Shown: one piece after another, positions 8,334 to 64,000 of the stretch
Layout: every line of letters begins with the position of its first letter
Numbering within the stretch: position 1 is the first letter of the stretch
Source: Gammaproteobacteria bacterium
Lineage (GTDB): Bacteria; Pseudomonadota; Gammaproteobacteria; Steroidobacterales; Woeseiaceae
Assembly (NCBI GenBank): GCA_029863125.1
Contig: JAOTWB010000006.1
Coordinates: 39,438-103,437, forward strand
Direction of reading: 5' to 3'
Length of the DNA: 64,000 nt
The notes under the pieces: generated by a model
Database searches by the model: none
What the model saw: only the letters and a program-made list of their open reading frames with translations
What the model was told of the DNA's origin: nothing
Made by a program: the position numbers and the translations under genes

Positions 8334-9629
8334 ATGCGACAAGCTTTTCGTTCTTCCATTTTGCACTGCCTTGCGGATCCGGGCGAAGCGTCGCGCGCAT
8401 CCGCCTTCGAGTACTTCGAAGACGGTCTGCTGATTATTGAAGGCGGTGCTGTTCTGGAGGCAGGCAACGCCGCGACCTTGCTTGACGGGCTGGCGGAAGA
8501 TGTGTTGCTTACCGAGTTTCCCGGCAAGCTGATTGTGCCGGGATTTATCGATTGTCACGTTCATTATCCGCAGCTCGACATCATTGCGTCCTACGGCGAA
8601 CAGCTGCTCGACTGGCTGCACCGCTATGCTTATCCGGCTGAAGCGCGCTTCAGCGACCCGGAATACGCGCGCGAGTCCGCAAAGGTCTTTGTCGACGAAC
8701 TGTTGAACAATGGCACGACTACAGCGCTGGTGTTCGGCACCGTGCATCCGCATTCCGCCGACGCGATATTTGAAGCGGCGGCGGCGCGCGATATGCGCCT
8801 GATTGCCGGCAAAGTTCTCATGGACTGCAACTGCCCCGACGAACTCAGGGACAATGCCGACTCGGCATATGCCGATAGCAAAGCACTGATCGAGCGCTGG
8901 CACGGCCAGGGCCGTCTCGGCTATGCGATCACGCCGCGCTTTGCGCTGACATCAACTGAAGAGCAGCTCGCCGCGGCCGGAAGGCTTGCGCGTGAGTATC
9001 CCGAGGTGTGGGTTCACACGCATCTCGCCGAGAATCACGACGAGGTGGAACAAATTGCGAGACAGTTCCCGTCCTCGAGAAGCTACCTCGACGTGTACGA
9101 TCAATTCGGTCTGCTGCGCGAGCGCTCTGTTTTTGCGCACTGCCTGCACCTGGATGACCAGGACCGCGCGCGCATGGCGGGCACCGGCGGCGCGGCTGCG
9201 TTTTGTCCGACATCCAATCTGTTCCTGGGCAGCGGCTTGTTCGATCTGCCCGCGATGCGTGCCGCCAACGTGCGCTGCGGGCTGGGCACGGACGTCGGTG
9301 GTGGCACGAGCCTGTCCCTGCTAAAGACGGCCAGCGAGGCCTACAAGGTGCTGCATCTGCAGGGTCACGCGCTGCCGGCAACGCGGGCACTTTACCTGGC
9401 AACGCTTGGCGCGGCCGAGGCGCTGTACCTGGATGACGCCATCGGCAATTTCCGGGCCGGCAAAGAAGCGGACTTTGTCGTACTCGACCCGAAGGGTTCG
9501 AAGCTGACGGCTCGCCGCATGTCGTCGGCAGAGACGATCGAGGAGGCGTTTTTCGCGCTGCTGACGCTCGGGGACGAGCGGCATGTCGCGGCGACATACA
9601 TCAAAGGGTCGGCGCCAAAAAATAATTAA
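8334..9629 (+). CDS. guaD: guanine deaminase
   Basis: PGFIDCHVHYPQLDIIASYGEQLLDWL, HTHLAEN, GLGTDVGGGTSLSLL; operon context. Confidence 0.93.
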   Translation: MRQAFRSSILHCLADPGEASRASAFEYFEDGLLIIEGGAVLEAGNAATLLDGLAEDVLLTEFPGKLIVPGFIDCHVHYPQLDIIASYGEQLLDWLHRYAYPAEARFSDPEYARESAKVFVDELLNNGTTTALVFGTVHPHSADAIFEAAAARDMRLIAGKVLMDCNCPDELRDNADSAYADSKALIERWHGQGRLGYAITPRFALTSTEEQLAAAGRLAREYPEVWVHTHLAENHDEVEQIARQFPSSRSYLDVYDQFGLLRERSVFAHCLHLDDQDRARMAGTGGAAAFCPTSNLFLGSGLFDLPAMRAANVRCGLGTDVGGGTSLSLLKTASEAYKVLHLQGHALPATRALYLATLGAAEALYLDDAIGNFRAGKEADFVVLDPKGSKLTARRMSSAETIEEAFFALLTLGDERHVAATYIKGSAPKNN

Positions 9630-59378: not shown

Positions 59379-60398
59379 ATGACCCAGTTTCTCGCTGAAT
59401 ACGGTTTATTTCTTCTAAAAGTCATTACGATCCTGGCCGCGATTATCGTGGTCATCGTGGTTGCGGCATCGGCCGGGCGGAAGGCCAGCCACGAAGGTCT
59501 CGAAGTCGAAAACCTGAACAAGAAGTACAAGACGCTCGCCGATGTGCTGCTCGCAGCGGTATCGACAAAGAGCGCAAGAAAAAAAGCGGCAAAGGCCCGA
59601 AAGAAAGAAGAAAAGGCCGAGAGCAAGGCCCCGTCAGCAAGGCCGCGCAGTTTCGTCATCGATTTCAAAGGGGACCTCAAGGCCACCGCCGTCGCCTCGC
59701 TGCGCGAAGAAGTTAGTGCAATCCTCGATGTTGCGGCCGAGCGAGACGACGTGATCGTCCGGCTCGAGAATCATGGTGGCGTAGTGCACGAGCACGGACT
59801 TGCGGCGTCTCAGCTGGCAAGAATCCGAGACCACGAGATTCCGCTGCTGGTCTGTGTCGACAAAGTTGCAGCAAGCGGAGGGTACCTGATGGCTTGCGTT
59901 GCATCGAAAGTGTATGCCGCGCCGTTCGCTATTCTCGGCTCGATCGGAGTCCTCGCGCAAATCCCGAACTTCAATCGGATGCTCGATAGTCACGGTGTCG
60001 ATTTCGAGCAGGTCACGGCGGGTAAGTACAAGAGAACGGTGACAATGTTCGGCAAAAACACCGATGAAGATCGCGCAAAGTTGAAGGAAGAGCTCGAAGA
60101 CGTGCATGCGCTGTTCAAAGATGCTGTCGCGAAGTACCGCCCTGCGCTGGACCTCGACAAAGTCGCCACGGGCGAACACTGGTACGGCACGAGGGCACTC
60201 GAATACGGCCTTGCCGACGAGATCAGGACGAGCGATGAGCTGCTTAAGGAGCGCGCATCGGAGCGCGACCTGTACCTGGTCTCCTACAAGGTCAAGCAGC
60301 CGCTGCAGAAGCGGGTGCTGGCGCACATCGACAGCCTGCTCGAGAAAGCGGATGCGGCCGGCTGGCGACGCCGATTTGAATCCCGCCTGCCGCGCTAG
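59379..60398 (+). CDS. sohB: inner membrane S49-family peptidase SohB
   Basis: TM N-terminus, VDKVAASGGYLMACVASKVYAAPFAILGSIGVLAQIPNFNRML. Confidence 0.93.
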   Translation: MTQFLAEYGLFLLKVITILAAIIVVIVVAASAGRKASHEGLEVENLNKKYKTLADVLLAAVSTKSARKKAAKARKKEEKAESKAPSARPRSFVIDFKGDLKATAVASLREEVSAILDVAAERDDVIVRLENHGGVVHEHGLAASQLARIRDHEIPLLVCVDKVAASGGYLMACVASKVYAAPFAILGSIGVLAQIPNFNRMLDSHGVDFEQVTAGKYKRTVTMFGKNTDEDRAKLKEELEDVHALFKDAVAKYRPALDLDKVATGEHWYGTRALEYGLADEIRTSDELLKERASERDLYLVSYKVKQPLQKRVLAHIDSLLEKADAAGWRRRFESRLPR

Positions 60399-60498: not shown

Positions 60499-61308
60499 AT
60501 GCGCAGACTTAACTTACTGATAACTCTTGTTTTTGCGGCGCTGATTGTTGCGTCGTGCGCCACTTCACCGACGGGCCGCAGCCAGATGATCTGGAAATCG
60601 GACGCCGAGCTCGAGGCTGAAAGCGCGCGCGCTTTCAACCAGATGCGCGCCGGGCTGCCGCTGTCGACCGACCGTCAGAAAATCGACTTTGTCGCCTGTG
60701 TTGCCGAAGCGGTCGTCACAACGCTCGAACCTCCGCTCAGTGATATCGAATGGGAGCTGGCGATATTCGACAGCGAGTCGATCAACGCGTTTGCGATGCC
60801 AGGCGGCAAGATCGGCGTTTTTACGGGCATCCTGGAAGTGACCGAGAATCAGGATCAGCTCGCGGCCGTGATTGGCCATGAAATCGCCCACGTGACCGCG
60901 CGGCATTCGAACGAACGCGCGTCGAGAGCGTCGTTGACGGGTGTGGGCATCAACGTGGCGGCGATTATCCTGGGCGGCGGGCACAGAGGTGCTACCTATA
61001 CGGCCCAGCAAGCCCTCGGCGCAGGCGCAGCGCTCGGTATATCCCTGCCGCACACGCGTGGCCAGGAAAGTGAGGCGGACATCATTGGCCTCGAGTACAT
61101 GGCCAAAGCCGGGTTCGATCCGCGAGAGGCGGTGAAACTCTGGCAGCGCATGGATGCCACCACTGACAAGAAGCCCGCAGAATTCGTCTCCACGCACCCC
61201 GCCAGTGAAACTCGGATCGAAGCGCTGGTCTCCGAATGGCCCAAGACGTTACCCTTGTATAACGAGGCCGTCGCGGAAAACCGAGTTCCAAGCTGTTCAA
61301 AAGAGTAG
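60499..61308 (+). CDS. M48 family metalloprotease, lipoprotein
   Basis: Lipobox-like leader (VASCA), HEIAHVTARHSNER (HEXXH), ESEADIIGLEYMAKAGFDP. Confidence 0.93.
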   Translation: MRRLNLLITLVFAALIVASCATSPTGRSQMIWKSDAELEAESARAFNQMRAGLPLSTDRQKIDFVACVAEAVVTTLEPPLSDIEWELAIFDSESINAFAMPGGKIGVFTGILEVTENQDQLAAVIGHEIAHVTARHSNERASRASLTGVGINVAAIILGGGHRGATYTAQQALGAGAALGISLPHTRGQESEADIIGLEYMAKAGFDPREAVKLWQRMDATTDKKPAEFVSTHPASETRIEALVSEWPKTLPLYNEAVAENRVPSCSKE

Positions 61309-61316
61309 AGAATAGG

Positions 61317-62450
61317 GTGCTAAGACGTCTCGCGCTGCTGCTGCTGCCGCTGCTGGCTTTGGGCGGCTGCGCGACGCTGGATGATTTCTTGGCCGGCATC
61401 AAGAAGAGCCACGGTCGAGGGGCGGTGGCGTTCAAGGACCGTCCGATCGAGGAACCGATCGCTCCCAACGCGTTCCTGCTGACGCACCCCGAGCAATCGG
61501 TGGTCGGCGAACCACAGGTCGTGTTCACACGCGCAGAAGATACCTTGTCCGACCTGGCGCGCGAATACGGCCTGGGTTACGACGAAATCGTGAGCGCGAA
61601 TCCCGGCATCGATCCGTGGACCCCCGGCGACAACACGCCGATCCTGCTGCCCACGCAATACGTGTTGCCGAACGTGCCGAGAAAGGGCCTCGTTCTGAAC
61701 ATTGCAACCAAGCGCCTGTTCTATTTTCCGGAACCGGCCGCTGGTGAGTCCCAGGAGGTGCTGACATATCCCATCGGTATCGGGCGCGTCGGGTGGGAAA
61801 CGCCGTTGGGCTCAACAGAGGTCGTATCCAAGGCGCGGGATCCGCACTGGTGGGTCCCTGCATCCGTCCGGCGCGAGCATGCGGAGATGGGGAATCCGCT
61901 GCCCGCAATCGTGCCGCCCGGGCCCGACAATCCGCTCGGCAGCCATGTGCTGAAACTCGAGATGCCGGGCTACCTGATACACGGTACCAACCAGCCCTAT
62001 GGGGTTGGTATGCGAGTCAGTCACGGCTGCGTGCGGCTTTACCCGGAGAACATCGAGAACCTGTATTCGCTCGTGGATATCGGCGAGGCCGTCACGATTA
62101 TCAACGAGCCGTACCAGATGGGGCAGCGGGATGGGTTCCTGTACTTTGAAGCGCACGCGCCACTGAAAGACGATGCAGTGCCCGCGGCAGAGCGACTGCA
62201 GGCATTGTTTGATGCGCACGCCGATGCTTCCGGGCGGCCGTTGAACGATCATCTGCAGAATCACGTCAGGTCGCTGGCGGAATTAGCTTCGGGCGTGCCC
62301 GTGAGTATCGCAATGTACGACGCCGATGAGTTTCTTGCCCGGGCACGCGTTGTGCGCAACACGGTCGAGGCCGATCCGAATGCGCCGACCTTGATTGAAA
62401 TCCGCGAAATGATGGATGAAGTCGACGACGAGGAAGAGGAATTGTTGTGA
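61317..62450 (+). CDS. L,D-transpeptidase (YkuD) with LysM-like segment
   Basis: Lipobox LGGCA; LSDLAREYGLGYDEIVSANPGIDPWTPG; HGTNQPYGVGMRVSHGCVRLYPENIE. Confidence 0.92.
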   Translation: MLRRLALLLLPLLALGGCATLDDFLAGIKKSHGRGAVAFKDRPIEEPIAPNAFLLTHPEQSVVGEPQVVFTRAEDTLSDLAREYGLGYDEIVSANPGIDPWTPGDNTPILLPTQYVLPNVPRKGLVLNIATKRLFYFPEPAAGESQEVLTYPIGIGRVGWETPLGSTEVVSKARDPHWWVPASVRREHAEMGNPLPAIVPPGPDNPLGSHVLKLEMPGYLIHGTNQPYGVGMRVSHGCVRLYPENIENLYSLVDIGEAVTIINEPYQMGQRDGFLYFEAHAPLKDDAVPAAERLQALFDAHADASGRPLNDHLQNHVRSLAELASGVPVSIAMYDADEFLARARVVRNTVEADPNAPTLIEIREMMDEVDDEEEELL

Positions 62451-62587
62451 GCGAGTGGCTCGACCTCATGCTTGACGAAATTGCGCGTAAACGACGCGAA
62501 TCTCGGGAAGCTGAAGATGAGCTCAGACGACGCGCAGAGTCTGAAAAAGAAAGGCAGGCAAAACCGGCCCCGGCTCAGTCGAAGTAG
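62447..62587 (+). CDS. tiny hypothetical protein (46 aa) overlapping the transpeptidase stop
   Basis: GTG start in a 4-nt overlap: VSEWLDLMLDEIARKRRESREAEDELRRRAESEKERQAKPAPAQSK. Confidence 0.5.
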   Translation: MSEWLDLMLDEIARKRRESREAEDELRRRAESEKERQAKPAPAQSK

Positions 62588-63630
62588 CGCATGAATTCCG
62601 CGGGGATATTGCCCGCCGCGAGAGGTCGATCGCTCGTCACGGGAAGAGGCCGCGAATTATAGGTATTCCAGAAGAGGTAGTTCTCCCCCGCATAGTCTTC
62701 CACTGCGAGGTCATGCAACAGCGCGGCCATGGCTTTACCCGTATAGGTCGGTTCCAGTGCGAGTCCAAGCTTGTCGCGTGCCACTGAGACGGCACTGGCC
62801 GTGACGCCGTCCCAATGCGCGTAGCCACCGGCAAAGAAGTCGTCGCGCCAGCGCAACTGCCTGGAATCCGCGGCACTTAGCGGGATCGACGGATCCAGCC
62901 GGTTCAGCAGCAAGGCCGTCTTGCGCAGCAGGCGCACAAAGCTCGCCGTATTCGTAATGTGTCTGTCCACGACCCGGACGGCATGCACCTGGGCTGGCAG
63001 TCCGGCCAGTGTGAGGCCCAGTAGCAGACCGGCGGCGCTGCCCATCGTGCCATTGGCAATGTAGATGCGCTGTGGAACAGGAACCTCATTGGCCGCGATC
63101 TGAGCGGCGAGTTCGAGCCCGGCGTTGACAAAACCCACGGCACCGAGCCAACAGGACCCGCCGAACGGGACGACCCAGGATCGTCGCCCCTGCAGGTAGC
63201 GACGAAACGTCGCCAGCCGATCGGCGTCGCCGGGGTAAGGGACAATTTCCGTTCCTATCCGGCGATGCATGTTCAGCGTTTTGGAAATGTTCGGCGTCTT
63301 CTTCTGGTCAGTAAGAATGCAGGTGCATTCGAAGCCCAGCTGCACCGAAAAAACAGCCGTCGCGAGCGCGTGATTCGAACCGACCGCACCAAAGGTCGCG
63401 ACGCGCCGCGCACCTCGCTCTCCGGCCCGTTGCAGAATGTACTCGAGTTTGCGGATCTTGTTGCCGCCATAATGCGCGCTGCTGACATCATCGTGTTTTA
63501 TCGACATCGTGCGTAGCCCTTGAGCCGTGTCGAAACGAACCGTCGAGACCGGCGTGGGCAGATCTGCGATTGGCACTTTCTGCAGCCGATCTGCCAGCAA
63601 AGGGTATGCAGCAGCCAGAGAGTCAGTCAT
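62575..63630 (-). CDS. PLP-dependent D-cysteine desulfhydrase / ACC deaminase family protein
   Basis: SIKHDDVSSAHYGGNKIRKLEYIL, FGAVGSNHALATAVFS, IANGTMGSAAGLLLGL. Confidence 0.88.
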   Translation of the reverse strand: MTDSLAAAYPLLADRLQKVPIADLPTPVSTVRFDTAQGLRTMSIKHDDVSSAHYGGNKIRKLEYILQRAGERGARRVATFGAVGSNHALATAVFSVQLGFECTCILTDQKKTPNISKTLNMHRRIGTEIVPYPGDADRLATFRRYLQGRRSWVVPFGGSCWLGAVGFVNAGLELAAQIAANEVPVPQRIYIANGTMGSAAGLLLGLTLAGLPAQVHAVRVVDRHITNTASFVRLLRKTALLLNRLDPSIPLSAADSRQLRWRDDFFAGGYAHWDGVTASAVSVARDKLGLALEPTYTGKAMAALLHDLAVEDYAGENYLFWNTYNSRPLPVTSDRPLAAGNIPAEFMRYFD

Positions 63631-63712
63631 GAACAGAGACTACCGAAGTGCATCGGGTATCGCGAATGCTTTAGAATGCAGGCACGCTTTTCTGACCCGA
63701 TCGGAGACAGGT

Positions 63713-64000
63713 TTGTCAGAGGCAGTTGACCATGGCATCACGGTCACAGAAATTGCGGCGATGGACCAGTCCATCGACCTATCCAAAGAAACGACGGCGG
63801 CTTTTGTCGGCCGCGCGCTCCGTGGTCCGCTCAATTCGCCGGTGCTGCTCAAAAATTTTGGTGAGTTTCGCCGACGCTTCGGCGATATCTGGTCGCGCTC
63901 GAGTCTCGGTCCGGCCGTAAATCAATTCTTTGAACATGGCGGTCGGCGACTGTATGTCGTGCGCGTCGCGAACAACGCACGCGGTGCGATGATCTGTTTA
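63713..64000 (+). CDS. phage tail sheath-like protein, N-terminal part, truncated by window edge
   Basis: TTG with GGAGACAGG upstream, open to the end: LSEAVDHGITVTEIAAMDQSIDLSKETTAAFVGRALRGPLNSPVLLKNFGEFRRRFGDIWSRSSLGPAVNQFFEHGGRRLYVVRVANNARGAMICL; TAAFVGRA.RGP / F.RRFG / AV.QFFEHGGRR.YVVRV are typical sheath N-terminal motifs. Confidence 0.82.
   Translation, partial: MSEAVDHGITVTEIAAMDQSIDLSKETTAAFVGRALRGPLNSPVLLKNFGEFRRRFGDIWSRSSLGPAVNQFFEHGGRRLYVVRVANNARGAMICL

Follow-up and report, generated by a model that had tools for sequence, protein, structure and literature searches.

Results

A sheath gene at the right edge of the window

The window, as the whole 64,000-nt stretch analysed here is called, ends inside a gene on the forward strand. 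Its reading frame runs open from 63527 up to the right edge at base 64000, and the gene starts with a TTG codon at 63713, with codons 1–96 (63713–64000) inside the window. A Shine-Dalgarno GGAG lies 6 nt before the TTG (63703–63706, forward strand) in a context that is conserved in same-genus relatives: each of the 29 loci read from the same genus (L010–L038) starts with TTG, in the Shine-Dalgarno context CGGAGACAGGT-TTG with few variants. Further upstream, a TAGAAT -10-like box (63672–63677, forward strand), for which no -35 hexamer was established, is kept in most aligned upstream regions of relatives and sits within a conserved intergenic block (~63636–63700) that could also serve the divergent gene for a PLP enzyme. 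A first-pass annotation of the window had described a frame open to base 64000 with sheath motifs, its own GGAG and the TAGAAT box; all of these were borne out, and the frame was completed by a second contig.

Contig C62 (103437 bp) ends at window base 64000, and this end shares an overlap of 167 bp with 1 mismatch (99.4% identity) with another contig of the assembly, C6. Joining the two yields a sheath gene product of 523 aa, the rest of the gene being on the minus strand of C6, to ~83113. The join is backed independently by two other genomes, G009 and G023, each of which shows the same gene order on a single contig: PLP enzyme, sheath, ECF sigma factor, DUF1800 and DUF1501. That the contig break separates two different loci was therefore rejected, as both genomes hold the run from the PLP enzyme through the sheath and ECF sigma factor to DUF1800 on single contigs.

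The identity of the product is clear over its whole length: it is a homologue of contractile sheaths and belongs to the branch of the contractile injection systems (CIS). Even by itself, the 95-aa fragment finds CIS sheaths in the PDB (8bky, E 2e-11); the full 523-aa protein matches the Streptomyces CIS sheath with E 3e-24 (phmmer), and a profile of 25 orthologs reaches E 3e-72 for the Streptomyces CIS sheath and 6e-65 for 9ezm. In Pfam, the window protein falls just under the gathering scores of the sheath models, while an ortholog that is 83% identical to it (L039) passes PF17482 with 28.3 vs 26.9 bits and matches PHROGs 'tail sheath' with E 1.8e-33; no NCBIfam model matches the sheath. An AlphaFold2 model of L039, built on a 10-sequence alignment and poor at both ends (pTM 0.69, pLDDT 67), gave as its best PDB match in Foldseek 9ezm, the sheath of the H. 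borinquense CIS in its contracted state (E 5e-26); phage sheaths and Streptomyces CIS sheaths came next.

The sheath gene stands alone among housekeeping genes

Directly to the left, the PLP enzyme (62575–63630, minus strand) is of the D-cysteine desulfhydrase / ACC-deaminase-like family (Pfam PF00291; NCBIfam TIGR01275 below cut-off), and this divergent gene adjoins the sheath in the family's loci and in many others of the order. Beyond it lie a LysM + YkuD L,D-transpeptidase (61317–62450, plus strand), which synteny shows to be the conserved gene most often found upstream of the sheath in the order, and two further syntenic neighbours, an M48 peptidase (60499–61308, plus strand) and a SohB-type S49 peptidase (59379–60398, plus strand). 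For these scanned immediate neighbours, the earlier statement that no phage genes lie to the left holds.

To the right, C6 continues with an ECF sigma factor, a pair of short familyless proteins, DUF1800, DUF1501, a DUF885-like protein, GTPases and metabolic genes, names that past the first five genes were mostly assigned by eye. The first-pass annotation had suggested looking for tail and baseplate genes to the right, and had taken their absence within about 30 kb as a refutation of its reading; over the 40 kb downstream of the sheath on C6, no tail genes were recognised, and neither were lysis genes, a P2-type tube, a capsid or a terminase by eye. An ECF sigma factor, a possible anti-sigma factor and a small secreted-looking protein start shortly past the sheath stop (L003:17182–18528, on C6), and co-transcription of the sheath with the downstream ECF sigma genes is possible in part of the genus. 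A heavy-metal efflux block (CusABC-like RND, multicopper oxidase, P-type ATPase) was noted by eye ~17–30 kb from the joined end of C6.

The same isolation was found well beyond this locus. In neighbourhoods from many families of the order, with genes called by a simple script, the sheath gene was solitary in 48 of 48, surrounded by conserved housekeeping genes and often with the L,D-transpeptidase ahead of it; hereafter it is referred to as the orphan sheath. A tblastn search with the gp19 tube of a related extracellular CIS (eCIS) found no match in the 48 neighbourhoods, and the orphan loci fall short of the ten or more core genes in one operon by which PMC8213781 recognises an eCIS. In a search for a functional partner, no gene proved to be adjacent to the sheath in all 48 loci, and the adjacency of the L,D-transpeptidase may be mere ancestral synteny. 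In family f15 (L075, L181), two conserved unknown genes of ~220 aa lie directly downstream of the orphan sheath.

Machine genes are missing from nearly all orphan-bearing genomes

In a class-wide sample, the closest full-length relatives retrieved from other orders are ~30% identical to the orphan and lie in gammaproteobacterial eCIS operons (G388, G390, G399 and others). There the sheath precedes a gp19 tube (E 1e-47), T4_baseplate, the cap protein Pvc16_N and an AAA protein, and several operons add CIS_tube and DUF4157-type proteins, whereas the orphan stands alone.

A panel of machine genes was searched in 30 orphan-bearing genomes, 29 of them near-complete and the remaining one the window's own assembly (G000, 74% complete). 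The gp19 tube (PF06841), gp25 (PF04965), Baseplate_J (PF04865) and the Pvc16 cap (PF14065) were each found in one of the 30, always G065, and were thus absent from the window's own assembly and from 28 of the 29 near-complete relatives. Even the single-contig genomes of the panel (G078, G117, G134) lack gp19, gp25, Baseplate_J and Pvc16_N, and mostly Hcp. G065 has an eCIS besides its orphan and serves as a positive control, showing that the searches for machine families work. This eCIS of a close relative (L161, on C12) has two gp19 tubes along with large frames of 638 and 990 aa that are related to sheaths. Across the order, a gp19 tube was found in only 11 of 248 genomes as against a sheath in 210, which leaves ~200 sheath-bearing genomes without one. 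These absences are judged by known families, and many of the genomes are draft MAGs.

The first-pass annotation had proposed that the window may hold the first gene of an eCIS, a tailocin or another tail-derived machine. Sheath homology speaks for this reading, as does the break between contigs where the window ends, but it fails on the completed locus: the 40 kb downstream are without recognised tail genes, the join is confirmed by synteny, and tube, baseplate and cap genes are absent from the assembly. Only a false join, together with an operon located in the 26% of the genome that the assembly lacks, could save it, and its chances are accordingly negligible. A tailocin or integrated phage is likewise at odds with the lack of gp19 tube, gp25 and Baseplate_J in the assembly. 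Type VI secretion would call for an Hcp tube, and Hcp occurs in only 3 of the 30 genomes, with none in G000.

Another alternative is that the orphan belongs to a cryptic machine whose remaining parts are encoded elsewhere and come from families not yet described. The searches reach known families only and machine genes could be unlinked, which leaves some room for this idea. Against it, the canonical relatives use ordinary gp19 tubes, which are absent even from the single-contig orphan genomes, and motifs that are conserved in tube-bearing relatives have been lost in the orphans (see below). A cryptic machine is thus improbable, if less so than the operon reading.

Distribution and selection

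The gene was present in 119 of 149 relatives. The genome collection used assigns Woeseiaceae to an order of marine and soil bacteria (in NCBI the family belongs to Woeseiales), and across this order a sheath was found in 210 of 248 genomes and 55 of 62 genera. Matches in a few of these genomes (G097, G095, G105) are weak and probably come from other sheaths, and the orphan is accordingly put at ~205 of 248 genomes. Restricting the count to near-complete, clean genomes gave 195 of 232 (~84%). Several relatives with small genomes of 1.4–2.0 Mb (G004, G011, G051, G076, G086, G090) are without the orphan sheath, and the presence of small genomes among the absences suggests that the orphan is lost on genome reduction.

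The orphan sheaths form one clade with 100/100 support and branch by host family. Their dN/dS was 0.07–0.13 in 16 of the 17 computable pairs and 0.29 in the other, and the reading frames are intact in almost all genomes. The orphan sheath has been inherited vertically through an order of Gammaproteobacteria, under purifying selection.

This mode of inheritance bears on the idea that the lone sheath is a decoy, a domesticated anti-phage part that co-assembles with and poisons the sheaths of incoming contractile-tailed phages or CIS. In principle, a solitary sheath that is kept under selection without a machine of its own fits such a dominant-negative role. Most defence genes, however, are not inherited slowly and vertically throughout an order, and the positions of the sheath gene are fixed, amid housekeeping genes and outside variable islands; PADLOC did not match the orphan sheath to any defence system, its one weak hit (E 0.005) being for a neighbour. 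A decoy is improbable.

Divergence from canonical sheaths

Comparing 95 orphan sequences (some genomes being represented twice) with 18 canonical sheaths showed that the orphans keep 32 invariant canonical positions, including those of AFVGRA, RGP and FF-x-x-GG, and lose 41 others. The losses include GVWKAPAG, a motif that hardly varies among canonical sheaths, and a large part of the PAEF strand region at the C-terminus: K357, P359, A360 and A511 (numbering of the canonical alignment) occur in 0–8% of the 95 sequences, and the orphans do not carry the set of canonical core motifs made up of GVWKAPAG and the R-T and PAEF regions. Conversely, 15 residues are present in at least 90% of orphans and not in canonical sheaths. 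The N-terminal arm motif (GITVTE-like) is found in most orphans and is missing in a few of family f10, the first 20 orphan positions have a mean identity of 0.70, and the C-terminal strands are still predicted in the AlphaFold2 model, though divergent in the alignment.

In contractile systems, the N- and C-terminal strands of adjacent sheath subunits form a 'handshake' (PMC10457771), and the conserved core of the sheath sits next to the tube (PMC9230969). Read against these structures, the lost canonical residues point to freedom from the tube and possibly to altered assembly. The arms that link sheath subunits may also not work everywhere, given the loss of GVWKAPAG and PAEF and the missing arm motif in f10.

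The same changes could mean that the orphan has given up polymerising altogether and become a soluble scaffold or binding protein, with the sheath fold kept and a new conserved patch proposed at E114, D123, Q136, R137, Q148, Y215, D216, G219 and S220. Such a neofunctionalised protein would account for the loss of GVWKAPAG and much of PAEF, the gain of 15 family-specific residues and the f10 members without the arm motif. It would not explain why most orphans retain a GITVTE-like arm with well-conserved first 20 positions, or why the predicted C-terminal strands remain, and I consider this reading unlikely.

Interpretation: a sheath probably retained for a job of its own

Sheath proteins are familiar as components of the injection machines of phages, type VI secretion systems (T6SS), eCIS and tailocins. 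The product of the window-edge gene is very probably a sheath without a machine, whatever its job. With no tube, spike or baseplate it cannot inject, and as selection maintains it with the other parts of the syringe almost always missing, there must be another job for it. The chances appear evenly balanced that the gene encodes a stand-alone, domesticated sheath that forms a self-assembling polymer in the cytoplasm, the polymer part of this reading being drawn from what other sheaths do. Recombinant T4 gp18 makes polysheaths by itself (PMC9230969). Sheath proteins are known to assemble even when no tube is present, which would make a tube or filament the simplest use.

On this account, the order would descend from an eCIS-bearing ancestor; later losses would have removed the genes for tube, baseplate, cap and ATPase, and the sheath would have been kept for a function of its own. 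Without further components, it would then form a cytoplasmic tube or filament like the polysheaths of T4 gp18, and this structure may serve as a structural or stress-related element. By analogy, self-assembly of the orphan sheath into such a cytoplasmic element is plausible at slightly short of even chances. The broadest version, in which a phage-tail sheath has turned into a housekeeping polymer, that is, an order-wide core protein forming cytoplasmic tubes or filaments, a sheath-derived filament system with a cellular role unconnected with injection, is offered more tentatively still.

Several known systems invite comparison. With the CIS and eCIS sheaths (Cis2; Streptomyces 8bky/8bl4, H. 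borinquense 9ezm), the orphan shares full-length homology, the predicted fold and a length of ~520–575 aa, as well as the N-terminal G-x-x-V-x-E arm and the AFVGRA, RGP and FF--GG motifs; it differs in having no tube, baseplate or cap gene, in having lost GVWKAPAG and degraded PAEF, and in conserved residues of its own. T4 gp18 polysheath resembles the proposed polymer in that a sheath protein can polymerise without a tube (PMC9230969), but it is a by-product of a phage protein, whereas the orphan is the product of a conserved bacterial gene. The type VI sheath (TssB/TssC), which works with an Hcp tube, has a related fold; the orphan, in contrast, is a single 523-aa chain of the CIS branch, and few orphan genomes have Hcp.

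Among open-access papers, no literature was found on a stand-alone sheath, or on tail sheaths or contractile injection in Woeseia, Woeseiaceae or Steroidobacter. One large survey required ten or more core genes (PMC8213781) and another required tube and baseplate genes (PMC12210884), and both would have passed over the orphan sheath because of these requirements. A sheath kept across a bacterial order under strong selection, without the machine in nearly all genomes, raises a testable question of what a lone sheath does, and a 'tail sheath' match by itself must not be taken to indicate an injection system or a prophage.

Second sheaths in two same-genus genomes

G012 and G030, two genomes of the same genus, each have an additional sheath of canonical appearance, which falls among the eCIS sheaths of other orders in the tree. 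In G012 (L160, on C36, ~8500–8820, minus strand), the gp19 tube gene that comes after the second sheath carries an internal deletion that keeps the frame. In G030 (L056/L057, C3:385211–386650), it lies alone among metabolic genes, and the genome has no gp19 tube. The dN/dS of the two second sheaths is 0.21, which may still reflect a past in a machine. They look like the same road to orphanhood taken again more recently, and the second sheath beside a broken tube gene in G012 shows how orphans can arise and how injection systems erode.

The G012 locus also lends some colour to the notion that the order-wide orphan is itself a functionless, decaying eCIS remnant. This was rejected: with dN/dS ~0.1, near-universally intact frames and presence in ~84% of near-complete genomes, there is next to no prospect that the orphan is a decaying pseudogene.

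Three IMG/VR contigs labelled 'viral' (L088, L089, L091) carry a sheath and a gp19-type tube that are highly similar to those of chromosomal eCIS operons (tube ~85–90%), and are probably bacterial eCIS fragments that were called viral.
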